Shown: positions 1-64,000 of the stretch, one piece after another
Layout of the letters: each line of letters opens with the position of its first letter
Numbering within the stretch: position 1 is the stretch's first letter
Source: Rhabdophis nuchalis
Lineage: Eukaryota > Chordata > Lepidosauria > Squamata > Natricidae
NCBI GenBank assembly: GCA_039707465.1
Contig: CM077643.1
Location: 378,116,419-378,180,418 of the forward strand
Length of the DNA: 64,000 bases
Reading direction: 5' to 3'
Translations under genes and position numbers: made by a program
The notes under the pieces: model-generated
What the model was told of the DNA's origin: nothing
The model's database searches: none
What the model saw: the letters and a program-made list of their open reading frames with translations, nothing else

Positions 1-118
1 TCCTCTTCATTTCCATGTCCATATCCCCACACCAACCAAGAGTATACACTCCTGCCACTGAATGGATGAGCAGAGCTCTCATGATGACCCAAAGACTACT
101 CCACTGGGAGTTCAGCAT
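1..118 (-). CDS. POMC: POMC-like copy 1, exon 2 coding part (truncated by window edge)
   Basis: This is the signal-peptide exon of a second pro-opiomelanocortin gene. POMC is the secreted precursor of ACTH, MSH and beta-endorphin. The start codon is at 118-116 and the frame is open to base 1; exon 3 lies left of the window. It begins MLNSQWSSLW and has a hydrophobic core (ALLIHSVAGV), matching copy 2 at 54115-53984. The exon acceptor (TTTCTCAG) falls after base 144, leaving a 25-base 5'UTR part (119-143) identical to copy 2. Compared with copy 2 there are 16 substitutions in 118 aligned bases; 11 of 14 changed codons alter the residue. A 12-base deletion together with a Cys-to-Gly change removes the first conserved Cys: copy 2 reads LCWDNSWC, copy 1 reads LGWC. 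No stop or frameshift is visible, so it may be a functional diverged paralog or an early pseudogene; exon 3 would decide. Confidence 0.85.
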   Translation of the reverse strand, partial: MLNSQWSSLWVIMRALLIHSVAGVYTLGWCGDMDMEMKR

Positions 119-194
119 CTTCACAGAAAGAAGACTGTTTCTGCTGAGAAAAAAATATTGGCCATCAAAGAAAGCAAAGTAATATAGATTAAGG

Positions 195-775
195 AGAGCC
201 AGTCTGATGTAGCAGTTGAAGCATCACACAGTCACTTTCTCTCAACCTAGGAAAGAAGCAATGCCAAACAACTTCAGAAAAACCTTGCCAAGAAAACTGC
301 AGGGGATTATCCTGCCCCGTACATCCCTTCGTCCAATCCGCTCCCACAGAGAGGGCCTTCTCCGGGTGCCGTCGGCGGGGCAATGCCATTTGGCGACACC
401 CAGGGGAAGGGCCTTCTCTGTGGCGGGCCCGACCCTCTGGAACGACCTACCCCCCGACCTTCGCACTATCTCGGACCTCTTCCGCCAATGTCTTAAGACA
501 TATTTATTTCAGCAAGCCGGCCTAGGATAGCCCCCCGTTTCTGACTTTTTAAAAATAAATTATAATTTGGGAAGGTTTTTAACATGGGTTTTAGCACGGG
601 TTAACTAATTTAATATATTTTAACTGATATTTATTGTATTTTGTGGTTTTAATAATGCCTGTGCGCCGCCCTGGGTCCTAACAAGGAGAAGGGTGGGGTA
701 TAAATTTAATAAAATAAATAAATAAAAAATTATCCAGACAGTCTATAAGAATCAGACATAATTGAATGGAAGAAA
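195..775 (+). repeat. Sauria-type tRNA SINE, internally deleted and split by a CR1 insertion
   Basis: The start (gagagccagtctgatgtagc) and the end (agacataattgaatgg) match the SINE at 54195-54415 in the paralogous unit. The middle of the tRNA-like head is deleted relative to that copy. A CR1 3' fragment sits at 313-728 with the repeated target attatcc on each side. The SINE therefore predates the duplication and the CR1 postdates it. Confidence 0.75.
313..728 (+). mobile_element. CR1/L3-clade LINE, 5'-truncated 3' end
   Basis: This encodes the C-terminal tail of the CR1/L3 ORF2 ([16 protein letters not shown], then [16 protein letters not shown]). A short 3'UTR ending in an ATAA-type repeat follows. 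Target duplication attatcc lies at 306-312 and 729-735; the paralogous site near 54376 is empty. Confidence 0.85.
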
Positions 776-1105
776 GTAGCATGAAATGATGGGGTGCATG
801 AGCTATCAAAGGTTTAGTCCAGATTTATCGTAAGCTTACTACCTGATCCTGGTTCACTTCATTTCTTCTTATCTGCATTACTGATGGATAATTGCCACCA
901 CATAAGGATTTTTTCCCAAGGATTCTAGGAGTAAGTCTCAATTTCCAATACCAGTTTGCCTGAATCAATGTGAACCGGAAGCAACCCACCTCTGGTTCCT
1001 GGTTCCAGAGTCTTCTGAGTTTTCAGACTTTTGCTGGAGCTGCGCAGTGAACTCCTCTCTCACCAGAAAGTGTTCTCACCAGAATACAATCTAGTGAGAG
1101 AGGAA
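776..1105. other. Copy 1 intron 1 sequence, no gene seen
   Basis: This aligns in pieces with 54416-54600 and 56290-56400 of the other unit. About 1.7 kb present in copy 2 (near 54.6-56.3 kb) is missing here. I see no exon. Confidence 0.5.
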
Positions 1106-1550
1106 TTTATTTTATTTTATTTATTTTGTCAAGCATGTCTAAGATAACAGAAATAAATATAAACATGATTATGAACACAGGAAATGGCTATGAACCAATG
1201 GAGACAGTAGGACAATGATGATAGGCACCTTGGTGCACTTAAGCACACCGCCTTACAGACCTCTTAGGAATGGGGTGAGGTCAACAGTAGACAGTTTATG
1301 GTTATAGTTATGGGGATTATGAAACCACAGAGTGAGGTATAGTGCATTCCAACCACTCTGTTGCTGAAGTCATATTTTCTGCAATCAAGTTTGGAGCAGT
1401 TTACCTTACGTTTTTATCTATTGCTTGTGTATTGTTGTGGTTGAAGCTGAAATAGTCATTGACAGGTAGGACATTGTAGCAGATAATTTTAGGGTTGGGG
1501 TCCTTCCATTCTCTATTTTACGTGGTGTATTTCCACCTTTTACCTCAAGA
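1106..1550 (-). mobile_element. Non-LTR retrotransposon 3' fragment (CR1-type, second family)
   Basis: An ATTTT-rich tail is on the left. On the minus strand the sequence reads like the C-terminal end of a CR1/jockey-type ORF2, with a degenerate 'RK YDFSNRV .. W..LP' pattern. The paralogous unit lacks it, so it was probably inserted after duplication. The family name is uncertain. Confidence 0.5.
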
Positions 1551-1761
1551 AGGTTTTTAGTGAATAGGATCTATATTGGAGTTCAATATCTTCCTTAGGC
1601 AGCTCTCATTGATTTCAATGTACTCATTGTACAGAAAAATTCTGCAGAGGATTGGGTCCATGGTATTTATGAGAAGACTGGTTAGGCACCACCAAATTTC
1701 AAGTGAACCCTACTAGAGATTGAATTTTCCTCTTCTTCCCATACTATTACCATAATGTTCC

Positions 1762-2270
1762 TATTGTGTAGTGGACTTCAGTAGGCAAGAAGCACACAGC
1801 ATAGATACAACAGCATTTGTGGCTCCAAACTGGAACTAAGGAACACCAGGCAAATGTCTGTAATTTATACTCTGGCCCCACAGGGCCTTAACCAATCATA
1901 ATACTTGAAAAAGCCCACCCAAATATGAGTGTTCTAAATTTCCCTCCAAACCAGTTGGAATTAACAGTTAGGATCATCTAAAGCAGGGGTAGTCAACCTT
2001 TTTATACCTACCGCCCACTTTTGTATCTCTGTTAGTAGCAAAATTTTCTAACCGCCCACCAATTCCACAGTAATGGTGATTTATAAAGTAGGAAAGTCAA
2101 TTAAATTAAAAAAGGAAAGTGCTTCAGTATTGGACAAAACCCCTATCACCCACCATGAAAGCTGGAATGCCCACTGGTGGGCGGTAGGGACCAGGTTGAC
2201 TAACACTGATCTAAAGGTTAGTTTCACTTTAAAAGGGCTTAACGCAACTTTATATATTCAATACATAACA
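1762..2270 (-). repeat. Gypsy left LTR (3' LTR on the element's strand)
   Basis: It aligns throughout with 9906-10343, from tattgtgtag to acataaca. It is longer because it carries a different hAT MITE from the right LTR. Confidence 0.85.
1984..2208. mobile_element. hAT MITE in Gypsy left LTR
   Basis: The ends are caggggtagtcaacc and ggttgactaacactg, a degenerate inverted pair. The eight-base duplication atctaaag is exact at 1976-1983 and 2209-2216. There is no coding capacity. Confidence 0.85.
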
Positions 2271-2300
2271 CACACAGCTGTAGGATAGTTCTTATCCTCA

Positions 2301-4960
2301 GTCTGTTCAATATTCATAGTCTTTGAGATAGGCTGGGGGTTCACGGATCCTGGTGGGCCACCGCAATGTTACTGGAGAGCCCTGTTTAAATGGGGTATTA
2401 TCCATCTCCAATTGGACAAAATCTTGAGGGCCATTTTTGTCGCTTGTGAGTGGTGGTGGCTCTTCAGCCCTTGCTACCTTCATTTCGGGTAATGTAAGCA
2501 AACCTGGAGCAAAAGTGGGTCTGATAAAGCCTTGGTGTTATATCTTCACGAAAAGACAGGGTCCGGAATCAGGTTTGCTCTAACAGGTTTCTTTATTTCA
2601 GTTACAGAAGAAATAGGGAGTAAAGTAAAGCGCGGTAGACAGGGGCTCCCGCGCTTTGACAGCTCTTTATATTTGGAACTGTCAAAGGGGGAGCCAATCA
2701 GGCTGCAGCAAGGGCCAGGCGCGCCTCAGCCAATCAGGCGCGTCTGTCGGTTGGCCGCCTTGCTACAGCCTGTTGCCAAGGCTCCAAGAGGCAGCCTGGA
2801 AGACCTGCGGCCGGTCGCAAGTCGAGACCGGTCGCAGGTCGAGGACACAACACCCCTTTCCCCCCTCGGTCTGCGCATGCGCGAAAAGCTGTCCATCAGG
2901 AGAGCGGAGCATGCGCAGTCCGCCGGATTGTCCCAGAGTCTCGTCAGGAGCTGAAGGAAGAGGACGTGCCCCTGGAAGCTCCTCCTTGCCGGGGTGTAGC
3001 TCCGGGCGGCGTCATCGGAGAGGCCTACCCGATAGGCGGAGTCCTCTGGAACGGTGAGTCGGGGTGAGGGGGCGTGGCGATTGTTGTGTAGGCCTGGTCG
3101 TCCGCTCGGCTTGAGCTAGGCCGATGAAGGTTGCCGGTAGGCGGCGTCAGGAGCAGGGAGGCCTGAACGGTGAAGGCCTTTTGTAGATCTTGCAGATGGG
3201 TAGGCCAGCCCGGTTGGGCGAGGTTGTTGGGCCCGGCGTGGCAGCCGGTTGGCCGCCTTGCTACAGCCTGTTGCCAAGGCTCCAAGAGGCAGCCTGGAAG
3301 ACCTGCGGCCGGTCGCAAGTCGAGACCGGTCGCAGGTCGAGGACACAACACTTGGGATCCTCATCCAGGACTGGCCCAGACTCCTGATGCTGTAATTCGT
3401 AAATGTAACATTTGATTGTACAATCACTCCCCAGAGTAACCTCGTATGACAAGGGGCCCGTTACCTTAGTTACCCTAACTGCCACCCAATGTGCCTTACT
3501 CCCATAGTTCCTGGCCCAGACCAAGTCACGTGGCTAAGTTCCTGAGGGGAGGTGGGGTGGCTGAGCCATCTCTGCTGCTACTCTGTCTGGGTGAAGTCAG
3601 TTGAACATCATCATGAGCCAGAGGCCCCACCTCATCTCCACTGGGCTGCAACCTATTGCTGTACTGGGAGTCATGTGTTGACACAGGAAGGAGTTCACCA
3701 GGTAGTGATTCCAGTCCCCAGTTGTCATCTGCTTGAGCTCCTTCTTTGTGGTCCTGACCATTCGTTCAGCCTGACCTGTTGGTCGCAGAGTGGAATGGAG
3801 CAGATGTTACATGCTGAATCATGTTGGCATTGAGGAATGACTGAAACTCTTCTGCCATGAATTCTGCCCCATTGTCGGACATGATTACATCTGGCAGACC
3901 ATGTGTGGTGAACAGCTGGCACAACTCTCGGATGATCCTGGTTGTTGTCATTGATGAGACTGGGGCCACTTCAAATCACTTGGAATAACTATCCATTACT
4001 ATCAGGAACCCCCAATTCAATGTGCACACGAGACCATGGGGCTTGCATGGTCTCCCAGCAGTGCACTGATGCTTACTTGATTCTCAATGTCTTTGTCCAG
4101 GCCTGGACACCAAAAGTAGCTCCTGGCTAGAGCCTTCAACCAAACATTTCCTGGGTGCCTCTCATGAAGGGAATCCAGCACCTTGGTGTGAAAACTGGGT
4201 GGAGTGATGACCCTGCTGCCCCACTGCACACATCCCTTGTGGGCTAACAGTTCATTTTTTCGAGAAGCATAGTGTTGGAACTCAGGGCCTGGCCGAGCCT
4301 CTGGCCATCCCCTTAACACCCAATTGAGAACATGGCTAAGTGTTCTGTCCATAGGGGTTTCAGATGCAATGTCTTCTGCATGTAAGAGTTCTTGAGGCAG
4401 GTCCTGGATCTCCAGAATAAGACAAGCTGGGGCCATATCTGGCTCAGTCTGCAGTGGAGGCTGTTGGCTGAGGGTGTCGGCATGGCCAATTTCCTTGCCC
4501 GGCTTGTGGACTAGCTGGTACAAGTATGTAGCCATAAAAATGGACCATCATAGCATTCGCAGCAATAGGATCTGTGGTGTCTGGTTGTCTGCTGTGAAGG
4601 GACCAAGCAGAGATTTGTGGTCTGTAAAGATGGTGAAGGTTCATCCATATAAGAAGTTGTGGAACTTCTTAATGCCAGTCCACGGATCCTGGTGGATCAC
4701 AGCAATGTTACTGGAGAGTCCTGTTTATGGCAAGATGTCCTTGTCTATCTGGGCATAGTCCTTTCAGCCAATGATAACTTTCTACAATAGTATGCGATGG
4801 GGGCTTTTCTACCATCTGGCATCCTGTGGCTTAGTACTACCTCAATGCTGTATGACGGAGGATCACATGCTAGTGTTACTGGTAGGATTTCACTGAAATC
4901 AACTAAGACGAAGTCCGAGGATAGCAATGATGTTAGTGCCTTGAACACTTCGTCTTGAGT
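2301..4960 (-). pseudogene. Gypsy pol 3' half: RNase H, integrase and C-terminal tail, broken
   Basis: Read from high to low coordinates. An RNase H-like part at 4948-4745 has RKAPIAYYCRKLSLAE. A tether and integrase zinc-finger region at 4535-4017 includes HKPGKEIGHADTLSQQ and a DSLHERHPGNVWLKALARSY segment. The integrase core at 3969-3766 has THGLPDVIMSDNGAEF and then a degraded APFHSATN. A chromodomain-like tail is at 3524-3353, and its last part resumes at 2501-2307 (TRIREPPAYLKDY) on the other side of the nested LTR element. Several frame changes separate these pieces. Confidence 0.8.
2536..3350 (-). mobile_element. Nested LTR element, recombined, inside Gypsy pol
   Basis: The left LTR at 2536-2852 is about 317 bp, starts TGTTATAT and ends ACACAACA. 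The last 104 bp of it recur at about 3247-3350, so the right LTR is truncated. Target duplication cttgg is exact at 2531-2535 and 3351-3355. On the minus strand a polypurine tract (GGGGGGAAAGGGG) lies directly before the LTR at 2853-2866, and the LTR has TATAAAG and AATAAA motifs. The roughly 395 internal bases carry no recognisable gene. Confidence 0.8.
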
Positions 4961-4979
4961 GCTCGACCAGACCCAGGAT

Positions 4980-6170
4980 GCTTGTTTGAAATATTGTTTC
5001 TTTTTTTATATTAATATTTTCTGTCACATCTCCATTCACCATTATTTTAGCTCTCTGGTGTGTGTAAATTACCTTTAGCATATTTGTAAATTTTTTGCCA
5101 AAGTCCATGCATTTTAATTGTTGCAAAATAAATTGGCAATTGACCTTAATAATAATAATAATAATAATAAATTTAATTTGTAGACTGCTCCCTCTCCCCG
5201 AAGGGACTCGGAGCGGTGCACAGGGGAATTAAAAAACATACAAACATAAATACATCATAAATATATGTAAAATCAAATTAAACAATTTATTCCTGCGCTA
5301 AAAACCCAGAATACTAAAAACTAAATGCCTTAAGAACCCAATTAAAACAATAAACAGATGACTAACCTAGGCCGGCCAAGCAGAAAAAGTGCGTTTTTAA
5401 TTTTTGACGGAAGGAGCGGAGGTCCGTAGTTGTTCTAATTTCGGGGGGCAGGTCGTTCCAGAGGGTCGGGCCCGCCACAGAGAAGGCCCTTCCCCTGGGC
5501 GCCGCCCGCTGGCATAGCCTAGTGGACGGCACCCGGAGAAGTCCCTCTCTGTGGGAGCGAATCGGCCGCAGGGATGTATGGGGCAGGATGCAATCCCGCA
5601 GATAGCTAGGTCCCGTGCCAAATACTTATCAAATGCTTTCTGGGCATCCAAAAATATTAACACTGATTGTTTTTCACTATGTATTTCATAGTACTCCAAT
5701 ACATCAAAATTATTTTAATATTGTTTCTGATTTGCCTCTTAGATAAAAACCCATTTTGATCAGAATTTATAAACTCAATCAGAAATCTTTTTAATCCTTC
5801 AGCAAATATTAAAGCAAATCTCTTATAGTCTGTATTTAATAGAGACATTGACATGTAGTTCTTTATTTGTGTTACATCTGAGTCTTCTTTTGGGATCAAA
5901 CTAATGTAAGCTTCTGTCCACGTATCTGGTATCTTGGCTTCTAATAGGACCTCATCATACACCTCTAATATTGGCAAATTCAATGCATCTTGCACGTCTT
6001 TATGAGTTTTTGCTGGTAAACCATCTGGATTTGGTGTTTTATTATTATTTTTTGTCTTTTGATCGCTTCTGTTAAGTTTGCCATTGTTATTCTTTCGTTC
6101 AACGTGTTCTTCACCATTTCGGAAATTTTTGGTAAATTAGCTTCTGATTTGTCATCCGAGTGGGGCATCT
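4980..6170 (-). pseudogene. L1 LINE reverse transcriptase fragment, split by CR1
   Basis: The minus-strand pieces match L1 ORF2. At 5995-5657 there is IPDTWTEAYISLIPKEDSD, then a degraded 'KNY.. SLLNTDYK' and DQNGFLSKRQIRNNI. The next piece has FLDAQKAFD, and 5126-4980 has CMDFGKKFTNMLKVIY and QRAKIMVNGDVTENI. The gap is filled by a CR1 3' end at about 5146-5620. Stops and frame changes make it inactive. Confidence 0.8.
5146..5620 (-). mobile_element. CR1/L3 LINE 3' end with (AAT)n tail, inserted in L1
   Basis: The tail (AAT)n is at 5146-5170, then the 3'UTR box (ctccccgaagggactcgg), then the minus-strand ORF2 end with a CR1-type [10 protein letters not shown] segment. It interrupts the L1 reverse transcriptase. 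Confidence 0.8.
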
Positions 6171-6479
6171 GTGGCTAGTAGGGCTCCATGAAGGGTAGCT
6201 GATTTCTGCCTGCCTGGAGGCTCTTTGGAGCCAAATGTCAACTTGTAGGGGTGACAAGAAAAGAAGGGCTCCCACAGATTGCAAGTGGACAGCGGTCTAC
6301 TTTTGCTCGATGCGGGGAAATCTTCTTGACAGGTGGAGAAGAAGCCGGCCATTCATGGCCTAAGCAGAGCTCTGACAGCCGGAACAAGTAAGCATGAATA
6401 AGAGGAGGAGGGGAAAGGAACAGTGTCTTGGATTTGGGTAAGAATTGCATAATTTCTACCCAAAACCTAGACTAAATTC
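6171..6479. other. Unassigned sequence inside the Gypsy element
   Basis: This is neither Gypsy nor CR1 by eye. It could be the 5' leader of a LINE. No convincing ORF is present. Confidence 0.3.
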
Positions 6480-6938
6480 ACCAAAATTTAGGGGCGTAGT
6501 TATATGCGAGACCGTCTCCTGCCCCATACATCCCTCAGACCGATACGCTCCCACAGAGAGGGCCTTCTCAGGGTGCCGTCGGCCGGACAATGCCGACTGG
6601 CGACACCCAGGGGAAGAGCCTTCTCTGTGGCGGGGCCAGCCCTCTGGAATGACCTACCCCCTGAATTACGCACCATCACCGACCTCCGCCTCTTCCGCCA
6701 ATGTCTTAAGACATATTTGTTCCAACAAGCCGGCCTAGCCTAACCTCCCATGGGCACTTTTAGGTAGTTTTAAATTGGGTTTTTAAAATTTGGTTTTAGC
6801 GCAGGATAGGATTATTTAATAGTTTTTTATATTATATTTATTGTATTTTGTATGTCTTTTAAATTTCCTGTGCGCCGCCCTGGGTCCTCTGTGGAGAAGG
6901 GCGGGATATAAATTTAAATAAATAAATAAATAAAATAT
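6480..6938 (+). mobile_element. CR1/L3 LINE 3' end with (AAAT)n tail
   Basis: An ORF at 6504-6743 encodes [16 protein letters not shown] and ends in LKTYLFQQAGLA, the C-terminus of this family's ORF2. A 3'UTR with the ggtcctctgtggagaagggcg box and a short AAAT repeat follows. Confidence 0.85.
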
Positions 6939-7765
6939 TTTTATGAAGAAAGGAGAGTCCAGAGAGAAGGAGGGCGGGAAATGTTACTCTTTGTCCCCTT
7001 GAGAAGTGGTGAGTGAAAGTTTTGAGTGGAAATGGAAGTGAAGCAAGGAAATATCTATTTTTAATTGGAAGAGAAAGACTGGATTGAGTATCTTAATAAG
7101 ATATTTTTTTAAGATATAGATATTATGTATTTTTGAGGGTTTTTTCCCCCCCAAACCTCTTTTTGGCTACATCTCGTGAAAGTTCTTTTTCTCTTTTTTT
7201 TCTTTAATTTTCTTTTTCCAGACTCCTAACTTAGAGTGGAAAGGAAAAAGAAAGCAAGGCTGCCATCTGCTGGCTAAAGTTGGTAAATACAAGAAGAAAT
7301 GCCTTGAACTGGTTATTTACTTATTTTGAGAACTGCTACATCTGGTGCTAGGAAATAGATTAAATATTGTGTTTTGTTTTGGAAATTACTGTGGGAAAAG
7401 CAAGATTGGGACTGCTATAGAGAAGAATTATTTCTGGATCTTTGTAGAATATAAAAAGTGAAAAGACAAATACTTATTTTGCAGAAGACTGGGGATATAG
7501 CAGGCCCTATGAATTACAAATATTAATGGATAGAACATAAAAGACAGGTCTTTATTTTTCAGAGGTGAGAAGAAAACGTTGGATTTATCGACATCACCAT
7601 CATCATTATTATTATTATTATCATTATTATCATCATCATCCCTATTTCTTTCTTTCTTTCTTTTCTTTTTTATCCCTCTTTTTCCCCTCAAACATTGGAC
7701 CACCAAAGACTGCGGATGCAGCAGGCCCTATGGATTACAAATACTAACTGATAAAATATAAAAGA
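6939..7765. other. Unassigned AT-rich sequence with a duplicated 60-base segment
   Basis: A segment at about 7488-7548 recurs in similar form at about 7708-7768 (both contain gcaggccctat.gattacaaat), flanking an ATT/CTTT-rich stretch. It may be LINE-derived. No gene is seen. Confidence 0.3.
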
Positions 7766-8870
7766 CATTTTTAAGGGCTTGTTTGTCCCATAGGCAGTGT
7801 AGCGGTTTTGCCAGGTAGCCTTGTGCGGTAAAAAAAAAAAAAAGTGGTAAAAATCAAGCAAGCCCAGGAATGCCTGAAGCTCCTCCTTGGATTTTGGTGT
7901 GGTTGCTTGCTGAATTATCTTTAGCTTTGCTTCAGGTGGTGGATTCTGGCAATGTCAATATAGAAACCCAGAAATTCTGTGGACTTCATGCAGATCTGGC
8001 ACTTTTCCCTCTCACAGAAACTCAAGACCTACCTTTTCCAACAGTCCGGCCTGGCCTAACTCTACCTAGCCTTTAGCCTGACATCAAATTGTTTTAATTG
8101 GTTTTTAAGGGTAATAGTTGAATTTATTGTAAATTTTAGCACAGGGTTAATAATTTAATTTGATTTTAAATTTTGTATATTGTCATGTTTTTATATGCTT
8201 TTTTAATTTCCTGTGCACCGCCCCGAGTCCCTTTTTGGGAAAGGGAGCAGTATATAAGTTAAATAAATCTAATCTAATCTAATCACATTTCAGGCCTGCC
8301 TCGTGGAAACGTTGGAGTATTGTGTGGAGATTTTCCACCAGGACTGCTGCTGATTCCCCTGCAATTAGGACCTCACCAAAGTATAGGCAAACACTGGGAA
8401 TGTTCTTCGGTGTTCATTCCATAATACTTTGAAACAACCCTGGTGCTCCACTTACCCCAAACTGCAAGTGGCACACTTGGAATGCACCTCTTTATGTGAC
8501 TATTGTTTGTGCTTCTGTGGTAGCATCATCTAATGGTAGCTGCTGGTAGGTAAGGGTGAGGTTTAGATTAGCGAAGATTCATCCTCTCTGGAGTGGGGGA
8601 GGATGTGGCTTACCAATGGTACAGGGTAGGCATGCGGCTGTAATGCCTTGTTTATGGTGCACTTGTACTCTGTGCAAATGCGAAGATCCCCATTAGGCTT
8701 AACTGGAATCACGATGGGAGTCTTCCAATGGCTACAGTCCACAGGTTGGAGCACTCCCTGCTGTACCAGCTTGTCTAGTTCCACATCAGTTTTAGGCTTC
8801 AATGCAAAGGGAACTCTGTGTGGTTTTAATCAGGCTGCATTGAGATTGAGTGAAATGGGTGCCCCTTTGT
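7766..8870 (-). pseudogene. Gypsy reverse transcriptase fragments
   Basis: At 8802-8563 the minus strand gives LDKLVQQGVLQPVDCSHWKT, PIVIPVKPNGDLRICTEYKC and NKALQPHAYPVP, the N-terminal part of Ty3/Gypsy RT. The palm and the conserved YLDD region are too degraded or missing to follow. At about 8000-7780 the frame resembles the post-RT connection (a degraded VEFLG.. and AFLGL.. pattern). A CR1 fragment at 8003-8284 separates the parts. Confidence 0.7.
8003..8284 (+). mobile_element. CR1/L3 LINE 3' end with (AATCT)n tail
   Basis: It starts in the sequence for the ORF2 C-terminus (KTYLFQQSGLA-like) and continues through the 3'UTR box ccccgagtccctttttggg. It ends in taaatctaatctaatctaatc. It breaks the Gypsy RT. 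Confidence 0.75.
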
Positions 8871-9905
8871 ATTGTTCCCGCTCAGTGCTGAATACATCAA
8901 TTTATTGTTGGCATACCGCTTCTAGATCGGCTATTTGGGTTCAAAGGATGCTTATTTCCCTGATTCCCAGGACCTCAAATCAGTCCTGTCCTATGAGGCT
9001 GGTGCATGGCCCCTCGATGACCATTACATTGAGGGGGGCCTCAAACTCTCTGAATCATACTCTAATAATAGCTTCATCCCTTATGGAAACGTGGTAATTC
9101 TGGAAGTCAGTTAGCACTAAGGTCAATGATTTGAGTGGGATCCGCCATTAGCTACATTTGGTGTGTTGGCTACAGGGGCTGGTGTATGTTTTTGGTGACT
9201 GGAGAGTCTTCATTGCCCCTCTGGCAGCCTCATCTGCCATGACTTCTTTCAATGTGTCTTGGAAAGTCAGTTTTTCCATGGCGAAAAGGCGTTGCTGTAA
9301 TTCACTATTACACAAGCCACAAACAGCCTGTCTCTGAGATGGTATTTCTGATCAGGGAACTCACATTGGTGCGAAGCTTGGTGAAGGGCTGCCACAAACT
9401 CTGCTGCACATTCCCCAGAATTCTGTTCATGTTGCTCGAATGCATGGCACTGGTCCAAAATGTTCCCTTATTTTCTTGAGGTCAGTGCAGGCCACTGTCA
9501 AGTAGTGATATCAAATGTGGCTTGTCCACAGACACATAATAAACTTGCTGCCTTCATGCTATCATCCATGACCTGGTTAGCCCAGAGATAGTTGTCTACT
9601 CGGGAGATGTATGGGCTCCACTGTAGTGAGTAATCCAGCTCCACCCGGTGAGTAATATCAAATTCATTGAGCCTTCCCAGTTTAGTAATTTTGAAAAAGG
9701 CCCTATGGTGCTGGTTAATGCCCGCACTGCTGCAGTTGGAGCTGGGACACACTTAAGAGTCCTGAGGATGGATCCCTCGGGTATGTCTATGCCTCCAGTG
9801 TGTCTTACTAGCAGGCAGGGCGGGGTGTGTGTAGCAAAGCATGTGTGACATGAACCAGCAGTAATGTCGGCAGCAACCCACCCTGGATCCCACCTTTGTT
9901 GCCAC
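8871..9905 (-). pseudogene. Gypsy gag/protease region, degenerate
   Basis: Minus-strand ORFs at 9752-9498 (FFKITKLGRLNEFDITHRVE) and 9458-9267 (HEQNSGECAAEFVAALHQAS) look like a Gypsy gag capsid region. Its position between the 5' LTR and RT fits. No CCHC knuckle or DTG protease motif is readable. Confidence 0.6.
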
Positions 9906-10343
9906 TATTGTGTAGTGGGCTTCAGTAGGCAAGAAGCAGACCAGCATAGATATAACATCATTTATTGGTTCCAAACTGGAACTAAGGAACAGCAGGCAAA
10001 TGCCTGTAATTTATACTCTGGGCTGATAGGACCGTAACCAATCATAATACTTGAAAAGCCCGCCCAAATATGAATGTTCTAAATTTCCCTCCAAAATAGT
10101 TGGAGTTAACAGTTAGGATCATCTAAAGCAGGGGTCTCAAACTCAATTTACCTGGGGGCCGCTGGAGGTAGAGGCTGGGTGAGGCTGGGCCGCATAAGGG
10201 ATACACTCCCCCTGCGGGCCGCAGTAATATTATACTTTCATATCATGGTGGGGGCCACAAGATCCGAGTTTGAGACCCCTGATCTAAAGGTTAGTTTCAC
10301 TTTAGCAGGACTTAACACAACTTTATATATTTAATACATAACA
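9906..10343 (-). repeat. Gypsy right LTR (5' LTR on the element's strand)
   Basis: It aligns with 1762-2270 outside the two different inserted MITEs. The inner edge borders a candidate primer-binding site (minus strand TGGCAACAAAGGTGGG). Confidence 0.85.
10129..10281. mobile_element. hAT MITE in Gypsy right LTR, same target site as in the left LTR
   Basis: The ends are perfect inverted repeats, caggggtctcaaactc and gagtttgagacccctg. The duplication atctaaag is exact at 10121-10128 and 10282-10289. The interior is unrelated to the MITE at 1984-2208. Confidence 0.85.
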
Positions 10344-11368
10344 GTTCCCACATTCAGGCTCTTACATGCAAGGATCTTCCATATCTCCTCCATGTAATCA
10401 CACCATTGGATTTTTTTAATCTCCAAAATAATGGAACTGCTTTTGATTTGCATACCAGCTCCATGGAAGAATTACACATCATCAATGTCAAAAGTGTGCG
10501 TTCTCTTTCTTCAGTTAATTAGATCTCATTTAAGATAGCTTACATTCTCATATTTTCCTCCACATGTGTTTTAGAGAATAACCATTTCCTCATAGCAAAA
10601 TTAAACTGTTATGTCTCCTAGTTACAAAAAGCAATATTTTTTAAACCCTATATAAAAAGCTAATAGACTAAAAATAGTTTTAGTCTAATAAAAACGAATT
10701 GTATTTTAGAAGAATTGTCATCCCCAGAGCTTATATAGTCTTGAATATGGATTTGAAGCTAGGAGAAAGGGGGTAAAGTAAAGGGGGATAAAAGAAAAGC
10801 TCTGATTAAAAAGACACAAATGGATTTTATTCTTGAAGAGTTACGTAACTACAAAATCATCTTTCTCAAAAGTTCCTGCCCTTTTTAAATTTTAATTATT
10901 CAACCCATTTGGGATACTGCATTCGCAACTGTCTACACAGGCAGAACGCCTGAAGAATTAAGCAGAGAACAGAAGTTGCCTACAAAAGGAGAAAGCAAAA
11001 CTATGCATGTGAAATAAACTCTTACCACTTACCACTCTTCACTTGGCTGGGAGAGAAGCAAATAAAAGGGGATCAGATCCCTTGGCAAGGCTATCTGCAA
11101 TATGACAGAAACTTAGAAGCAGGACATGCCACGGATGGCAACTTGCTTCATTGCCTTCAAAGCTACCTCCTGCCGTGCCCTGGTCTGAGTTTTTCCCTTC
11201 TTGATGTTTGTCAGCTGGGATCTGCACTGCAGAACTTTAAAGCCCATGCTTCTTCAGCTACACTTGAAAGAAAATGAATAAAGCAAGCCTTGCCATCCTT
11301 TCAGAGGGAAACCTATGGGATCAGCATCTGAAGAATTAAAGTGCAGCCAAGGCAAGAGGGTTACTTAC
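10344..11368. other. POMC copy 1 intron 1, promoter-proximal part
   Basis: This is nearly identical to 57050-57289 and 57467-58257 in the other unit. No exon is seen. ORFs here are conserved between the units only because the whole block is nearly identical. Confidence 0.7.
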
Positions 11369-11455
11369 CTGTTGCTGCAACGAGAGTTCTCCCTCTTCTC
11401 TCCCTCTCTTTCTCTCTCGGTCTCTCTCCCTTTCTTCCTCTTAACAACTGCAAGG
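11369..11455 (-). other. POMC: POMC copy 1 exon 1 (non-coding 5'UTR), predicted
   Basis: It ends in GCAACAG followed by a strong donor GTAAGTAA (from 11368 down). The 5' end is placed 25-30 bases after the TATA box at 11485-11477, giving an exon of about 87 bases, a normal size for POMC exon 1. It is identical to copy 2. There is no ATG in a sensible context, as expected for a leader exon. Confidence 0.7.
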
Positions 11456-50955: not shown

Positions 50956-53983
<3,028 letters not shown>

Positions 53984-54115
53984 CATCATTTTCACTTCTG
54001 TGTCCATGTCCCAACACCAACTGTTGTCCCAACAAAGGCTATGCACTCCTGCCACTGAATGGATGAGCAGAACTCCCATAATGGCCCAAAGACTCCTCCA
54101 CTGGGAGTTCAGCAT
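53984..54115 (-). CDS. POMC: POMC copy 2 exon 2: start codon, signal peptide, first Cys pair
   Basis: The exon spans 54140-53984; coding begins at the ATG at 54115-54113. It encodes 44 residues: MLNSQWRSLW, hydrophobic AIMGVLLIHSVAGV, then HSLCWDNSWC and WDMDTEVKMM. Signal cleavage is expected near residues 24-27. The pattern C-x5-C, followed across the splice by C-x3-C, is the four-Cys N-terminal domain of POMC, which forms two disulfides and helps sort the precursor into regulated granules. The acceptor is TTTTTTCTCAG and the donor GTAAGT, in phase 0 with exon 3. Only the first third of this exon matches copy 1 well. Confidence 0.95.
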
Positions 54116-54194
54116 CTTCACAGAAAGAAGACTGTTTCTGCTGAGAAAAAAGAATATTGGCCACCAAAGAAAGCAAAGTAACATAGATTAAAGA

Positions 54195-54415
54195 GAGCCA
54201 GTCTGATGTAGCAGTTAAAGCATCACGCTAGAGACTGTGAGACTGTGAGTCTTTGTCCCGCCTTAGACACAAATCCAGTTGAGTGACTTTGGGCCAGTCA
54301 CTTTCTCTCAACCCTAGGAAGGAAGCAATGCCAAAACCACTTCAGAAAAACCTTGCCAAGGAAACTGCAGGGGATTGTCCAGATAGTCTATAAGAATCAG
54401 ACATAATTGAATGGA
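54195..54415 (+). mobile_element. Sauria-type tRNA SINE, nearly complete
   Basis: The head is gagagccagtctgatgtagc with the B-box region gagtctttgtcccgcc. The conserved middle is ttgggccagtcactttctct, and the BovB-like tail is agaatcagacataattgaat. The degenerate copy at 195-775 is its paralog. Confidence 0.75.
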
Positions 54416-55313
54416 AGGGAAAATATGGGTTATAAGTTGCATGAAATGATGGGGTACATGAGCTATCAAAGGTTTAGCCCAGATTTATCCTAGGCTTACT
54501 ACCTAGTCCTGGTTTACTTCATTTCTTTCATCTGCATTACTGCTGGATAATACTATATTGCCTCAAATAAGGATCCCCCCCCCCCCCCCCCCCCAAGGAT
54601 AGGCGTATCTCTTCAGAAATCTCTCTCAAAAGGTTAACTCCTGGCTAAAGTAGCAAAGTCCTGCTGGCACATTCTTTGGTATCCGCCTACTTATTGTAGG
54701 TAAGAATAAGAGCTTGCAGGCTGCAACAATAATATCCAGTCTCAAGCATAATACATTTCCATTAATGTCTTCAGACTCATACAGACCCTGGAGACATTCT
54801 TGGAAAAATAAAATAAATGGTTCAGAATCAGCAGCCCTGTCCTTTGTTTAAATATGGTAAAAGAGTTAACCATCTCTACCCCAACACAATTTTTGTGACA
54901 ATGTCTTCCACATGCTATCAGAATTCCAGCTGTGCTTGCTGTATTTGTCCTAAAAGGCAGAGAACCACTGCTTTAAAGGCTAGACAATTCTAGCATTAGA
55001 GGTTGGCAATTGTAGAGATATGTATATTCCCTGTTCTCTAGCACAACCAACCTGAACTCGCTAACATTATATTTTCCCACTAATTTGCTTAACCTCTCCC
55101 ACACAGGCTATGCTGACGCATGGTAAGCACAAATAAAGTTGATTTGCTTCTGCCTTATCCTGTTATACAAGTCCAGCCACCATGTTTGGCAACCAGAGCG
55201 GAAGTATGGGAACACAGCCAAATTGTGATTTGTTCAATAAGCCATTGTTAAAACAAACCATTCCTTAGAGTAATAATGTGTGAAAGTAGCCAATGGTGCT
55301 AATGGGTTTCCTA

Positions 55314-55467
55314 CAGTGGTGGGATTCAAAAAATTTTACTACTGGTTCTGTGGGCGTGGCTTTGTGGCAGGGGAAGGAAACTACAAAATCTTCATTCCCT
55401 CCCGACTCTCAAAATTTCTTCTACCGGTTCTCCAGAACCTGTCAGAACTGGCTGAATACCACCTCTG
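55314..55467. mobile_element. hAT MITE, CAGTGGTGGG family
   Basis: The ends are cagtggtgggattc and gaataccacctctg. The duplication is gtttccta (55306-55313) and gtttccca (55468-55475), 7 of 8 matching. Confidence 0.82.
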
Positions 55468-57289
55468 GTTTCCCAGAACATTCTTTGTGCATTTGCTGCC
55501 CTGCCATGAATAAGAGGTACAACCCTCATGAAAGAAAGAAGACCACATGGTGTGTTATTTTATCCAAAACCCAAGTCCCAATGGCTGAAATAAACGATTA
55601 CTATGGCTTATGATGCTATAACTATGTCTAGTACCGACCCCCCACTAAACCAGCTGCTAATTCTACAGAAATACAAAAATGAAATTTATTACAAAGGAAA
55701 AAGGGGTGAAGCTAAACTTCTTGGGCTGTAGGCTGAGACCTTTGTATAGACTATTTGTATATTCCACCACCACCCTGTCACTTTCTATAAGTCTGTCTAT
55801 AAGTCTATTTTCTACATACATTTCCATGTACATTAAAAAATATTACAAATCTGCTCCAGATGTTGGGCAAGACTGTGTCATTATTCTTAGCAGGTATTTT
55901 CAAGAATGTTCCTATAAATAAACACATATGTTGCAAGGGAAGAGTGGTTTTGATTTCCCCCCCTCTCATTTCAACATTTACATTTCAACTTTTCCCATCT
56001 ATTATTTCAAGGTCTGCTGAAACTATCACAGACGTATGTGGCTCCAAACAGAAAATGACTAGGCTGCTCTCCGGGGATGTCAGTCCTTCTACTACCAAGT
56101 TAGTTTGCTAGTTCATCTAGACGATTAATATTACAATAACAGCATGCCAGTTAAAAATTAAAATCTGAAGAACTTGATTGTATTCTGGAATTGTCTATTC
56201 ATGAGCTGTATTCAGGGCATGCACGTAACTCTGAAATTTGTGAAGAAGCTGTGGGAGAAACCTAAGTATGCAGGATCCAATCGGGGTCGGTCACTAGGAC
56301 CAGAGATTTAGTCTTCTAGGTTTTTGGACTTTTGCTGGAGTTCCTGGAAGAACTTTCTTATTCGAAAGTGTTCTCACCAGAATGCAATCTAGTGTGAGAG
56401 AAATTCCTTGGGATGGGCTCCAGCATGAGCCCAAAACTTGGAAGATTAAGAGCTGCCTAAGACTGACTCAGATTGGATCCTGCAACATTATCTGGGACAT
56501 GTATATTTTCCTTCATTCATGAGACGTAAGGATCTTAGCAATTGAAGGAGATGCCGTCTTGAAACTGTGTCATTAAAAAATGAATAAGAATACAAAAAGC
56601 AAAAAGCAAGGAGGGAGAAAAAGGAACTGAAATGCGCATAGAAGGTTATAGTTGCTTCAACAGTGAGATGGGTGGCATATAAATTTAGTAAAATATTTTT
56701 AAAGTGGAGAGTTTGCCAAGTGTTCCAAACAGTCAGGACATTCCACTTCCATGGAGAAACTGCAATAGAGCAAGAGAAAAGGCCACAAATGGAGTACCAA
56801 GAGGAGGCAGCCCATTGGCTCCAAGGATATGGTTCCCCAAGGAGATCTTTAGTGAATAGGATCTATGTTGGACTTCCATAGCCTCCTTAGGCAGCTCTCT
56901 TTGATTTCAATGAGATTCGTCCAGAAAAATTCTGCAGGATATTAGGTCCATGGTTTTTAGGAGAAGAATGGTTAGGCACCACAAAATTTCAAGAGAACCT
57001 TATTAGAGACTGAATTTCCCTCTTCTTCCCACACTATTACCATACTGTTACCACGTTTAGGGTCTTACACGTTCAGATGTGCAGGGAACTTACACATGTC
57101 CTCCATGTAATAACAAAATGGGATATTTTTTTTAATCTCCAAACTAATGGAACTTTTGATTTGCATAGCAGCTCCATGGAAGAATTACTCATCCTCAATG
57201 TCAAAAATATGCATTCTCTTTCTTCAGTGAATTAGATCCCCTTTAAGATACCTTACATTTTCATGTTTTCCTCCACATATGTTTTATAG

Positions 57290-57458
57290 CAGGGGTCACC
57301 AACCTTTTGAACTTCAGGGACCACTAATTCATAATTTTAAATCCCATCGACCACTAATATTATTTTTTTAAAAGATAAATAATATTTAGTGCAATATAAA
57401 AAATGCAAATAATTTTTCTGTGAACCACCAAAATTTTCTCACAGACCACCACCACCTG
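57290..57458. mobile_element. hAT-like element in POMC copy 2 intron 1
   Basis: It starts caggggtcaccaacc; the far end is eroded (caccacctg). The flanks ttttatag and ttttagcg each differ by one base or so from the single site ttttagag at 10569-10576 in copy 1, which is therefore the empty site. Confidence 0.75.
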
Positions 57459-58257
57459 TTTTAGCGGATAACTATTTCCTCATAGCAAAATTAAACTGTT
57501 ATGTCTCCTAGTTGCAAAAACCAAGCTTTTAAAAAACTATATAAAAAGCTAATAGACTAAAAATAGTTTTAGTCTAATAAAAACGAATTGTATTTTAGAA
57601 GAATTGTCATCCCCAGAGCTTATATAGTCTTGAATATGGATTTGAAGCTAGGAGAAAGGGGGTAAAGTAAAGGGGGATAAAAGAAAAGCTCTGATTAAAA
57701 AGACACAAATGGATTTTATTCTTGAAGAGTTACGTAACTACAAAATCATCTTTCTCAAAAGTTCCTGCCCTTTTTAAATTTTAATTATTCAACCCACTTG
57801 GGATACTGCATTCACAACTGTCTACACAGGCAGAACTCCTGAAGAATTAAGCAGAGAACAGAAGTTGCCTACAAAAGGAGAAAGCAAAACTATGCATGTG
57901 AAATAAACTCTTACCACTTACCACTCTTCACTTGGCTGGGAGAGAAGCAAATAAAAGGGGATCAGATCCCTTGGAAAGGCTATCTGCAATATGACAGAAA
58001 CTTAGAAGCAGGACATGCCACGGAGGGCAACTTGCTTCATTGCCTTCAAAGCTACCTCCTGCCGTGCCCTGGTCTGAGTTTTTCCCTTCTTGATGTTTGT
58101 CAGCTGGGATCTGCACTGCAGAACTTTAAAGCCCATGCTTCTTCAGCTACCCTTGAAAGAAAATGAATAAAGCAAGCCTTGCCATCCTTTCAGAGGGAAA
58201 CTTATGGGATCAGCATCTGAAGAATTAAAGTGCAGCCAAGGCAAGAGGGTTACTTAC

Positions 58258-58344
58258 CTGTTGCTGCAACGAGAGTTCTCCCTCTTCTCTCCCTCTCTTT
58301 CTCTCTCGGTCTCTCTCCCTTTCTTCCTCTTAACAACTGCAAGG
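58258..58344 (-). other. POMC: POMC copy 2 exon 1 (non-coding 5'UTR), predicted
   Basis: It ends GCAACAG followed by donor GTAAGTAA (58257 down). The start is placed 25-30 bases below the TATA box. It is identical to copy 1 exon 1 as far as I can see. Intron 1 would be about 4.1 kb. Confidence 0.75.
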
Positions 58345-58590
58345 TTTCAGCAGCAACCCCAGCCCCTTTTTATACCACACAAGCTAGTCTTTCGTGCTAG
58401 AGTAACCTTCCGGACAGACCTTTTGAAGCAACAAGAAAAGGGGAGGTGACCAGGAAAGCTCCAGGTGTACAAGAATGGGAGAGATTAGCAGGCATCCACC
58501 AAGACGTCGAAGCATACGTGGGGAAAGGCTCACAAAAGGCAGCTGGAGGTGGAGGGAGGATTAGCACCCCAATGTGAAGAGGACGACCAG
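58345..58590 (-). promoter_or_regulatory. POMC copy 2 promoter
   Basis: TATAAAAAG is at 58374-58366. The E-box CACCTG is at 58467-58462 and the TAATCC site at 58563-58558, at the same spacing as in copy 1. Pitx/NeuroD use is inferred from mammalian POMC, not shown here. Confidence 0.65.
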
Positions 58591-59185
58591 AATGAGGCAG
58601 AGGAAAACTTCCCCCATTTTTAGCCCCTTAAATTGGTTCTGCGGATCAGGAATAGGCAGGTGATTATTATTATTATTTAATTAGAAACCAGACACCCTTT
58701 GGTAATAATGGCACATTGGTTCATGGAGGTTTAACACACTATTGTGTGCATATTGTACACATCTGTTCAATACTATCTCTCCTTTTTTTATTCCCTTTCC
58801 AAATTGCATTTTGTAAAGTTCCTTTGTTCAGCTTGGCAAGAAAAAAGAGGCTCAACTGGTGGTCCATATGGTAACGTTTGTGTACCACTCTGGTCAGATA
58901 GATTTCAGATGACATGACAGTAGGATGCCATGCCTCTCCAGCTACGGTCATCTTAAGCAATCCCCTCTAAAATCCCCTCGGTTTTAAATGATGCCCCCAA
59001 CCCCCGAATTATAACTGCAATCAGCTCTAAGGAGCTTTATGGAATTCCCTTCCTTTTCATCTAAGGGTTTCCAACTTTTATTTTAGATTTCCTCAACAAT
59101 CTAAAAGCACATTTCACCAAAAGGTATATTTGAACCAAATCAGAGGGGTCTTTGTTTAGAAAGGCACCTAAAGACGTTTAAGGAA

Positions 59186-59186
<1 letters not shown>

Positions 59187-59246
<60 letters not shown>

Positions 59247-59279
59247 TAATTAGATTTCTAGACCGCCCCCTCTCCCCGA
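59187..59279 (-). mobile_element. Minimal CR1/L3 insertion: about 35 bases plus (ATT)n tail
   Basis: The tail (ATT)n is followed by agaccgccccctctccccgaaggga. The target gaatat is repeated on both sides. Copy 1 (near 12287) is empty. Confidence 0.8.
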
Positions 59280-59574
59280 AGGGACGAATATGAAAGAATA
59301 TGGAAGACTTTTTGTAAGTGTAACGTCTCCTGGATTTTGCACATGAGCTAAATGGTCACTCAAGACAAAACAAATCCAAGAAATCCCTTCCTTAAACTGA
59401 GATTGGAGGAATAACAAGGGTCAACCCACCATATTTACAAACATTTTAGCATGTCCATGTTAGAATAATGTAAATTATTTAGAGTGTTTTAATTTAAAAA
59501 ACCATTAAAAAGAAAACATCTGTCTAATGCCTTGAGTTGACCAAAAATAAATAGTGGGATGATCATCATCATCA

Positions 59575-61180
59575 TCATCACCGTACATCTCATGTAGGTA
59601 CTTGGTTGATACCTAGGATGCTGGCAGCAACCCGTATCAACCATCAATGCCAGTAAATAATATGTGTGATACATTTTTAAATGTTCAGTTGACTGAGTTT
59701 CATGTTTAATAAATAAATGTTTATAATAATAATACCATCAAACTGGCCTACAAGAAAGGCCAAATGAAAAACAGAAAAGAAACATGACAAGGCAAAGTGT
59801 TATATGGTCAATTCATAGCAGGCCAAACAGATATTAATAAGCCCAGGCAAAGGCTAAGGGCAGAAAAAATGAAGAAAAGGACCATGGCTATAGAAGATGA
59901 ATCCTTTAGAAAAAAATGCATACAAAGTTGGAATTGAGGAGACAACAACAGACGGCAAACACTGCCTCTGCAAAGAAGCTGAAGAAACACTGGATCACCT
60001 AGGTATCTGCTGCAAGAAGATCACACAGACTGACCCCAAGCAAGAGCATGACAAAGTAGCAACAATGGTGCATTGGAAGATCTGTAAGAAATACTGTTTG
60101 CCTGCAGGCAAGGACTGGTGAGACTATAAAATAGGCAAAGTAATGGAAAATGAAGCTAATGTGCTCTGGGATTTCCAAATTCAAACAGACTTTTCACGTA
60201 ACACCCCAGATTTAACAATTGTCAATTAGAAAAACAAAAAAAATCTGGATAGTAGACATTGCAGTACCAGAAGACAGCAGAATAGAAGAGAAAGAAATGA
60301 AGAAGAATCACACAAAAAAAGAAAGACCTGCAAATAGAAATAAAAGTAGAAGTAGCAAAAGAAAGCAAAGGTACTACCAATAGTGATTGGCACCTTGGTT
60401 CAATCCCAAAACATTTGGAGCACCTCTTGAACACCACTGGCATTGGCAAAATCATCATCAGTCAACTGTAGATATAAACTTTACTTGGAACATCTTTTAT
60501 CTTGTGACAATACCTTTAACACCATAAAAACAAAAACATCTGTCTTTTCAAGGACCTTGGAAACGATTCAATAGTATAAAAATGCCAATTCTAATCTAAA
60601 CATATGGCTGATTGTGCAACCAACCACAATAATGCTAGGCTTACAATCTGGTTCTGATACTAATGGACTAAGTGTGTAATCATAGGCTTGCCACACAACC
60701 CAAAATTTGGCTTCCCATTGTGAATTATATCCTTTCCATTTTATCTCAAGTAGCAAAACACTAGAAAAGCTAGAGGCATTTTCTGTTTTTGTTTTAGCAA
60801 TACAATGATGTACTCAACTGTTCTTTATTTAAAGTAGACTTAATTTTAAATTGCTGGCCAGCATTGCTAAACAGTGACACATTGGCAAACTTTGGGGAGG
60901 GGAGTGTATCCCTCTATCATTCTTTTATCATTTTATTTACCTTCCAGAATAGGGATATTGTGTTTCCTACAAAGATGCATTTAGTGGGAAAACGGGAGAT
61001 GTTGGTTGCTTTGAGTAAATAGAAATGGGAAAGTGCAGAGATTCCAGAATGAGAGGATCCTCATAGAGGAAAAGAAAATTAAAAGTGTTGCCATTTATAG
61101 AGGAGTGAATTTAAAAAGATGTTGAAGGAACGGAAACAAAAAGGGTTGCTGGGTCTATACAACTATTAGATTTAGGCTAG
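59575..61180 (+). pseudogene. R4-clade LINE remnant, paralog of 13566-14670
   Basis: The ORF at 59897-60121 has KEAEETLDHLGICCKKITQ (the Cys/His motif). Further on, AGKDWW...IGKVMENEANVLWDF-like codons are readable but shifted. Extra sequence at about 60320-61020 includes more of the 3' end (ttacttggaacatcttttatc) that copy 1 lost. No intact ORF. Confidence 0.65.
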
Positions 61181-63881
61181 AATAAGGACAAAAAGCTTGA
61201 AATGTTGCATTTTGGAAATCTAAAGTAAATGGAGGCAGAAAAATATGAGATGGATCATTCATTAACAGATAGTGGCAAATATTTGCTTATTATGGTCCCA
61301 CAGGGCAAACTCTGTCAAATAGGCTTCATTGATGGGAGATGGGGAGAATACATTTAGTTGAAACTTAGTGAAACTTAAGAATATTTCAGTAATGGAACTA
61401 ACAGAGAATATTGATTATGGAGTGGTATAATGCAATCGGATATGGATGGGTAGGTGAAGGTGGGGGAATCTTTTAGGAAACATCTAATGGTCCTATCTAT
61501 CTCAGTTATTTATTTTTTTGCTCTTCTTGCTTAGTTTGCAAGCCTGGGGTCTCAATCTGTTCTTTCCTTCTTTGTTTCTTTAAAGCAGTGGTAGAAACGA
61601 AGCAAGTGCACCAAGAATTTTGACATTTTGGAAAAGCAGAGAATGCTACCTTTTCAAAAGGAAAAATGGGGTTAAGAGTAATATAAACAAAGCCAAAGTC
61701 TAAATTTCAAACTCTTTTACCTCTAGTCACATCCAGGTCATAGGGTCCTTGAGCAAATAATTTTTTTCACAGTGTGAACAAACCTCCTCATTCTTAAGAC
61801 CACGGGCTGCTAAAAATCACAAGCCAATAATCCAGGAACCATCCTGAATGGAGCACAATGCCACAATGCCTCCAGAGATTGGCTGAGGTTGGGATCCTAG
61901 AGATTTGGGTTTTTGAGAATCAAAGTCTACGACCCTCAAAGTCCTTGTAGGGGACTACTTACCCCATCTTCTTTTTACATTTTACAACCATTCTATGAAT
62001 AAACAATGTCCATGACAGCCCAGAAATGAGAGTGCTCAAAACATGTTCTCAGAATTCCAAATTTTCTCATCAGCCCCCAAAGGGTGAGAGTTGAAAGTTG
62101 AGTCTTTAGTCCTCAGACTTTTTTTATAAAGATCTGAATGGCATAAGATTGGAGTGCCTAAAGCAAAACAAAGGATTCAGTGTGATCAAAGTCGCTCGGG
62201 ATTCAGTCCAGAGCTCTCCAGTCCCTTACATTGGCCAGAAGAAAACAGAAGGATGGGAGTAAATCTCAAATTGATCCTCTCTTATAAAGCATATATAGTT
62301 TCTGAAAGCAATATTCACTCATAGTCCGCATGGGAGGGTGTATTAAATATCTCCACAGCAAACAGGAGCTGAGAGAAAGGAGTTATTGAGCAGAAAATGA
62401 TTATAAGACTCTCATTCTGGAGGAGGTTTAAATCAGAGGCTAATTAAACGTCTTAATTTTTTTTTTGTTAAAGTCTTAATGGCATAATGTGCTTAGCAGG
62501 ACCTTAGCAACCCTTTTTATAGATTAAAGCAGCCTTTCCCACCCCAATGCCCTCCAGATGAGTTCAACTAACATTTTCAGCCAGCATGTGTGAAAGGAGC
62601 AGGATTATAAGAATCTTCCAAATCATCAGGAGGACATCAGGTGGAGAATGACTGTTTAAGGGCCACAAGAGCCCAAAGCAATGGAGAAATGTACTGTATG
62701 TATGAATAGGAGATAAAAAAAGTTCTTTTTAAAGAAAAAGAAAAATGATCTTTGTAGAAGATAAATTAAAATAGAAAGCAGGGGGACACATTAAAAGGGG
62801 GTTGTTCTTTAATTGCACTCACAACCTGACTGTTCAAACTGCCCCCACCCTGCCCGCAGATACTGGGCAGTAAAATACAAGAGGAGGCCAATTCTGTATA
62901 TGTGATTTCACTTGTAAAGTTGCTTATTAGTCATCTTTCACCTTAAAATATATGAGTCATAAAAATGCTTACATAGGGCTAAGATTCTTGCAGGCTATTA
63001 TCACTGCTACCTTGCACCCCCAAAAATCCCATAAGCTTGGAGGTAAGTTGAAATTTTAGAATGAAATGATAATTTAGTTTAACTGACACTGATTTTCAGA
63101 GATAGATAGAAACTATTCCCTACAGACACTATCTGTAGGGAATTCATGCTAGTGGAAGATTCACTGCCAGCATTAGGGCCTTCCAGTTTTAGCAGCCTGA
63201 ATTATCCTGAGAAACATTGTTTTGACGGAGGGCTATTTGGATAGTCAAAGTGGGCTCAATCAAAGTCCAGGATGTTGACTTGAATTTCACCTCTGCACAT
63301 CTCAACTGAAAGTAGTTTGGGTGTCTAACTGGTAGTAACAAATCAGTTTCAAAAGGATGACATTCAGAGCAATAAAGAATTTGGATAGGGAATGCAGAGA
63401 TAGAGAACCACGTTTTAAGCATTATGACAGTCTCTGTGCAAATTGGGTTCCTGCCCTCCTGCTTTTCTCTTTATTTAGCTTTGTCTATCATCCTTCTGCT
63501 TGATTGCTTCTATTTTTAAACTTTGAGCAGAAAAGACCAGATAGATTTTCCTCCTTGGTCCTACTTCTTACCCCTTACTACTTACTTTTCTGATGCCTTG
63601 ACTACAATTGTCATATTATTGATGATGTTCCCTAATTGGATAACTGAACTCTGAAAGCAAACAATCAAGCTCAGACAGCCGTAAGGACTCCACAATTTAG
63701 TTAACATTGGGGAAAATTATTATTAATTCCTTCATCTGCAAATATATATTTATCCCTGTCACATAATATTAGAAATATGTACATGTTAAACTTTTGACTT
63801 AGCACAGTAGTTATTTAAAATCAGTAATTAATTCAAAGCCATGGTTTGTTATTGGCTAACCGGAACTGTCTTCAGCTAAGC
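61181..63881. other. Upstream flank of POMC copy 2, segmental-duplication block
   Basis: It matches 15439-15545, 15669-16426 and 19634-19945 in pieces. About 1.3 kb (61.45-62.79 kb) is missing from copy 1. No gene is seen. Confidence 0.7.
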
Positions 63882-64000
63882 CAGTGTGTCTCAACCTTGA
63901 CGACTTCAAGTCCTGTGGACTTCAACTCCCTGAATCCCCCAGCCAGCACAGCTGGCTGGGGAATTCTGGGAGCTGAAGTCCACAGGACTTAAAGTCGCCA
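63882..64000. mobile_element. hAT foldback MITE, cut by window end
   Basis: It starts cagtgtgtctcaacc and folds back (cttcaagtcctgtggacttc pairs with gaagtccacaggacttaaag). It is related to the palindrome at 20490. The left duplication half is agctaagc (63874-63881). Copy 1 at 19945 is empty. Confidence 0.75.

Follow-up and report, generated by a model that had tools for sequence, protein, structure and literature searches.

Two POMC genes lie in tandem on the minus strand at the locus analysed here, which comprises the window, a stretch of 64,000 nucleotides of Rhabdophis nuchalis DNA, and sequence adjoining it (Table 1). Copy 2 was found to be an intact POMC of 263 aa, encoded by the joined exons 2 and 3, whose start codon, splice sites and exon 3 were read on the minus strand up to a stop at 50296. 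Its NPP, ACTH and opioid domains were all above the Pfam cut-off, as in a POMC of the full type, and the single YGGFM with an endorphin context in the 224 kb compared around the locus was that of copy 2. Copy 1, the downstream copy, encodes 177 aa, in which a signal peptide, N-POMC and ACTH/alpha-MSH are followed by a stop ahead of beta-MSH/beta-endorphin. Its coding region runs from 118 to -1 in exon 2 and continues through an exon 3 located 1.8 kb left of base 1, the exon on whose presence there the earlier note had made the duplication depend. The TATA box and the exon 1 donor were present in both copies, and copy 1 keeps its splice sites and its 177-aa frame. A processed retrocopy was ruled out, since copy 1 has both introns and a promoter.

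Two adjoining units with one POMC each

The two genes belong to two collinear units of ~54 kb, arranged head to tail on the same strand with a junction near base 49,500. This arrangement was given by the best collinear chain, comprising 30 of the 222 matches obtained when the 224 kb around the POMC locus were compared. Units A and B are directly adjoining, and only the 127 bases at 49440-49566 are assigned to neither. Within the window, self-comparison matched the exon 2 region (32-227 with 54029-54226) at 92% and the promoter, exon 1 and intron 1 at 97.5%, with flank matches reaching 19955 and 63883. In this way, exon 1, exon 2 and the flanks proved to be doubled on the minus strand where the earlier note had placed them. 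The extent that it had proposed, to ~19.9 and ~63.9 kb, was too small, for collinear matches continue to 49,439 and 104,263. Toward the right, from 20.5 to 43 kb, the chain thins out: it has zero matches at 20.5-32.9 kb, and those at 32.9-37.7 kb may all come from a single repeat family.

Table 1. Coordinates of the features at the POMC locus, in window positions; negative numbers denote positions left of window base 1
Feature	Position	Strand	Remarks
Unit A	about -4080 to 49439; in window 1..49439		holds copy 1, truncated POMC; chain with unit B
Unit B	about 49567 to 104263; in window 49567..64000		holds copy 2, full POMC
Copy 1 exon 1, non-coding	11369..11455	-	start predicted from TATA box; donor present
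Copy 1 exon 2, coding from 118	1..143 and two bases left of window	-	
Copy 1 exon 3	-1835 to -2248 (G000:C1:378114583-378114170)	-	1.8 kb left of base 1
Copy 2 exon 1, non-coding	58258..58344	-	start predicted from TATA box
Copy 2 exon 2, coding from 54115	53984..54140	-	
Copy 2 exon 3, coding portion including stop	50296..50955	-	
Copy 1 high-identity tract from promoter through exon 1 into the start of intron 1	10567..12286	-	partner 57457-59188
Copy 2 high-identity tract from promoter through exon 1 into the start of intron 1	57457..59188	-	
Copy 2 beta-endorphin end and 3' UTR, high-identity tract	49945..50357	-	partner -2932 to -2520
LINE private to unit A, 3.2 kb	16427..19633	+	unit B site (63580/63582) empty
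Stathmin exon, 5'-truncated piece, end of unit A	49259..49439	-	chain, edge comparison, Pfam Stathmin

The end of the chain is anchored by a stathmin exon (Pfam Stathmin), which is whole in unit B, at 104.1-104.4 kb, and of which only the 3' part is present in unit A. One edge of the duplication thus lies inside a gene other than POMC. No repeat common to both unit edges was seen in the edge comparison. This exon presumably belongs to STMN4, a gene that in human lies near PNOC. A stathmin neighbour is plausible in view of that proximity and of the common location of POMC and PNOC, which PMC2865548 describes for chicken and teleosts.

Sequence divergence between the units was measured in 22 block pairs. 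The two high-identity tracts and the exon 2 and exon 3 blocks were excluded, and the remaining 18 pairs together served as the non-coding background. In this background, 501 of the 4389 aligned columns differed (11.4%), and 11 of the 46 non-coding gaps were multiples of three. Moreover, unit A carries a private LINE encoding an APE-type endonuclease and a reverse transcriptase, and the corresponding site of unit B is empty. The earlier note had mentioned shared older insertions, among them an R4 LINE, and private younger ones; a private one was borne out, and the name R4, if the same element was meant, does not fit the two domains. Such divergence and the private insertion show that the units are not an assembly echo, as the note had argued, nor haplotypes. 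Together with the adjoining position of the units and the truncated POMC of two other snakes (see below), they support a real segmental tandem duplication.

Other elements were observed in the unit. A LINE frame at 34412-37576, open over 1054 aa and likewise with APE-type endonuclease and reverse transcriptase domains, is 92.5% like the private LINE at 16427-19617. At 20490-20595, 106 bases match their own reverse complement perfectly, and a minus-strand frame at 4020-4547 has an integrase zinc-binding domain (Integrase_H2C2, E 5e-6). The endorphin remnant of copy 1 contains, at about -2519 to -2385, a 135-bp hairpin matching its own reverse complement at 130 of 135 positions and flanked by an 8-bp target repeat, CTCTAGTG, a configuration that we take to fit a hAT-type MITE. 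Rfam gave zero matches in the window.

When exon 3 of copy 2 was used as query in one DNA search of the whole assembly (1,917,733,297 bases, 348 contigs), three matches were obtained at two loci, corresponding to copy 2 itself and to exon 3 of copy 1. Neither this search nor tblastn of the 224 kb revealed a third POMC, although a distant copy may exist.

The truncated copy and its relatives in other snakes

The stop of copy 1 is a TAG at the position of a CAG in copy 2. Behind it, the beta-MSH region can still be read; the YGGFM core has been lost by deletion, and the endorphin remnant bears a small insertion. In Pfam, the NPP and ACTH domains of copy 1 were above the cut-off and the opioid domain was absent, so that copy 1 is a POMC paralogue by descent and not a full POMC by content. 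Given the position of the stop ahead of the endorphin part, its product would likely comprise only ACTH- and MSH-type hormones. Both an HFRW core and a basic stretch of the KKRRP type, which PMC3622036 describes as needed for an ACTH-type melanocortin ligand, are present in copy 1, in which K15 is replaced by R, as it is in copy 2 and in the lizard rows of the protein alignment. A search of solved structures with this ACTH-like stretch gave zero matches. On either side of it, copy 1 was found to be altered. Its signal peptide has an Arg in the core and is less hydrophobic (Kyte-Doolittle score 2.12 versus 2.58), and its N-POMC shows a 4-residue loss and three cysteines, compared with four in full copies. 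The linker is rebuilt, with repeats of SPVYPGKGHMQ, the KR cleavage site ahead of alpha-MSH has become GR, and the CLIP-like tail is new.

Protein searches with copy 2 gave 554 matches and those with the truncated set 874, the best 120 being examined in each case. Among the best 120 of the 874, the opioid domain was absent from four entries, P0026 (Pituophis), P0027 (Ahaetulla), P0123 (king cobra) and P0134 (Aegotheles), and the truncated form was recognised in two snake species only. P0026 (Pituophis 'POMC-like') and P0027 (Ahaetulla 'POMC B-like') end after ACTH as copy 1 does, and resemble it in the signal-peptide Arg, in the loss of 4 residues and in having three cysteines. In a gap-free count from EYPE, for which only proteins were available, the Ahaetulla sequence ends on the CAG codon of copy 2 and that of Pituophis one residue earlier; the frame of copy 1 is thus open up to a stop at the end point of its relatives, within one residue. 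A second POMC in other snakes, for which the earlier note had proposed a search, was therefore found at the protein level. In a tree built from 15 rows over 200 columns, copy 1 grouped with P0026 and P0027 (97/92) inside the snakes, closer to the POMC of Ahaetulla than to that of python, which points to these two proteins as direct relatives of copy 1. An alternative tree joining copy 1 with copy 2 was marginally rejected (p-AU 0.046). The branch of copy 1 (0.73) was far longer than those of Pituophis (0.14) and Ahaetulla (0.12), whose proteins, unlike the much more diverged copy 1, keep the KR before alpha-MSH and a recognisable linker.

The king cobra entry, annotated as 'POMC B, partial', was rejected as a truncated copy, since it continues like the full type. 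It was the one match, among two candidates, when the tail of the Ahaetulla protein was used as query for short relatives; residues common to copy 2 and Ahaetulla POMC are absent from this fragment, an observation that likely places the present genome with the colubrid snakes. The bird entry P0134 (195 aa) has NPP and ACTH without the opioid domain. The alignment also bears on gamma-MSH, whose core is missing in all five snake rows other than copy 1 (copy 2, the full POMC of Ahaetulla and Liasis, and the truncated forms of Pituophis and Ahaetulla), which read ...HWNKFGK or similar. SHFRW was present in eight of the nine non-snake rows, Anolis having SHFPW, and the number of ACTH stretches recognised by Pfam was two for both copy 2 and Liasis and three for Elgaria. 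From this alignment, gamma-MSH would seem to have been lost in snakes.

Near-identical tracts and unequal rates

Two tracts departed sharply from the divergence described above. In the promoter-to-intron-1 tract only 31 of 1719 columns differed, against a background of 11.4% (P 2e-52), and in the tract covering the endorphin end and the 3' UTR only 2 of 413 did (P 3e-19), the latter extending with two further differences across the beta-MSH remnant up to the stop of copy 1. In both cases the edges of raised identity lie inside the unit, and the near identity of promoter, exon 1 and 3' end suggests gene conversion between the copies.

The coding exon of copy 1 followed a different course. With the python protein as outgroup to polarise changes on shared columns, 67 private residue changes were assigned to copy 1 and three to copy 2, the corresponding figures for the Ahaetulla pair being 41 and 6. 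Over 112 reliable codons, dS was 0.148 and dN 0.185 (dN/dS ~1.25), with 30 changes attributed to copy 1, three to copy 2 and four unclear. Owing to their poor alignment, codons 65-99 and 148-177 were excluded; dN and dS in the segments containing them came to 0.52-0.82. With the ACTH core left aside, the reliable codons of exon 3 differed at 36 of 159 bases, compared with 27 of 319 in the adjacent intron (p 4e-5) and with the pooled non-coding columns (p 8e-5). Exon 3 of copy 1 is therefore more diverged than its intron, with the exception of the ACTH core, whose codons 122-140 differ from copy 2 at only 1 of 57 bases (p 0.018 versus non-coding sequence). Silent changes are few in the core too, so that a short conversion tract could explain its conservation.

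The survival of the frame was compared with neutral expectation in simulations of 20000 runs per setting. The frame remained open in 360 runs under the base setting, in 870 at half the indel rate and in 65 at twice the substitutions; HFRWGKPVG was kept in frame in 215, 412 and 10 runs, respectively.

A probable melanocortin-only prohormone beside a complete POMC

The explanation favoured here, to which we assign a probability of about 0.6, is that a POMC block of ~54 kb occurs twice head to tail and that copy 1 likely works as a prohormone for melanocortins alone, with a complete POMC next to it. It rests on the gene structure, the stop, the sequence tracts, the unequal rates and the truncated proteins of two species. 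A single duplication would have occurred in an ancestor common to Rhabdophis nuchalis, Pituophis and Ahaetulla, its two breaks falling in the stathmin exon and downstream of POMC. Gene conversion would then have equalised the promoter, exon 1 and the 3' end, and because these parts are alike copy 1 would retain POMC-type expression. Freed from opioid duty, copy 1 may have acquired the early stop that removes the beta-MSH/beta-endorphin half, and after this truncation it would have changed fast, with only its melanocortin receptor-binding core being spared. This reading of copy 1 is drawn from the combination of like ends, a fast coding exon, a fixed receptor core and a frame open in three species. 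Counting against it are the GR site, the lost cysteine, the weaker hydropathy of the signal peptide and the long branch, and the dN/dS of ~1.25 also fits relaxed constraint. The more specific proposal of a dedicated colubrid melanocortin gene, with regulatory ends matched by conversion and a coding exon under positive selection around a fixed ACTH core, can be put forward only tentatively.

The features that count against a melanocortin-only hormone, together with the 135-bp insertion in the remnant, would be expected of a decaying gene, which lost its opioid half and then a cleavage site and a cysteine, and which is now drifting while conversion with copy 2, visible in the two tracts, keeps parts of it intact-looking. 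Such a history is the main rival of the explanation favoured here and the less likely of the two, since plain drift should at most equal the divergence of the adjacent intron and of the pooled non-coding sequence, which exon 3 outside the ACTH core exceeds. Moreover, the frame is open in three species, and its neutral survival was rare in every simulated setting. Descent of the truncated genes of Rhabdophis nuchalis, Pituophis and Ahaetulla from separate duplications with independent truncations is improbable: the long branch makes the placement of copy 1 unsure, and the tree joining the two Rhabdophis copies was rejected by a narrow margin, but the three sequences form one well-supported group with a common Arg, 4-residue loss and end point. 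Least probable of all, and hardly credible, is that one block is a haplotype or an assembly artefact. The 98-99% identity of the two tracts could be read in that sense, but the non-coding differences, the private LINE and the dissimilar coding contents speak against it, and in Ahaetulla the full and truncated proteins are both encoded on contigs of 377,630,096 bases.

Tandem POMC genes are in themselves known from some fish, and the novelty of the snake pair lies in the content of copy 1. The earlier note had attributed the two POMC genes of fish to genome duplication rather than to tandem copies; PMC4992253, citing Harris et al. 2014, describes teleost POMC1A and POMC1B as tandem duplicates. 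These resemble the snake pair in being tandem, with unequal products and expression in the fish, and differ from it in stemming from an event in another lineage. Lamprey POC and POM likewise are two POMC-type precursors, with differing melanocortins, according to PMC3622036. In that paper, POMC-type genes keep one opioid core, whereas copy 1 has none, and the lamprey event is very old. No description of a duplicated snake POMC was found, by title or abstract opening, among the matches listed in searches of an open-access collection.

PCR-based studies of snake POMC may mix two genes, given that the promoter, exon 1 and the 3' UTR are nearly alike. POMC is one precursor tying together stress, pigment, appetite and pain. 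If the melanocortin-only reading of copy 1 is true, a single duplication plus a single stop codon would suffice to sever the link between melanocortins and opioids, and if copy 1 is a dedicated melanocortin gene, melanocortin output would be free to change with endorphin output unaffected. The snake pair would then offer a test of how far the pleiotropy of POMC limits the evolution of colour and stress response in reptiles.
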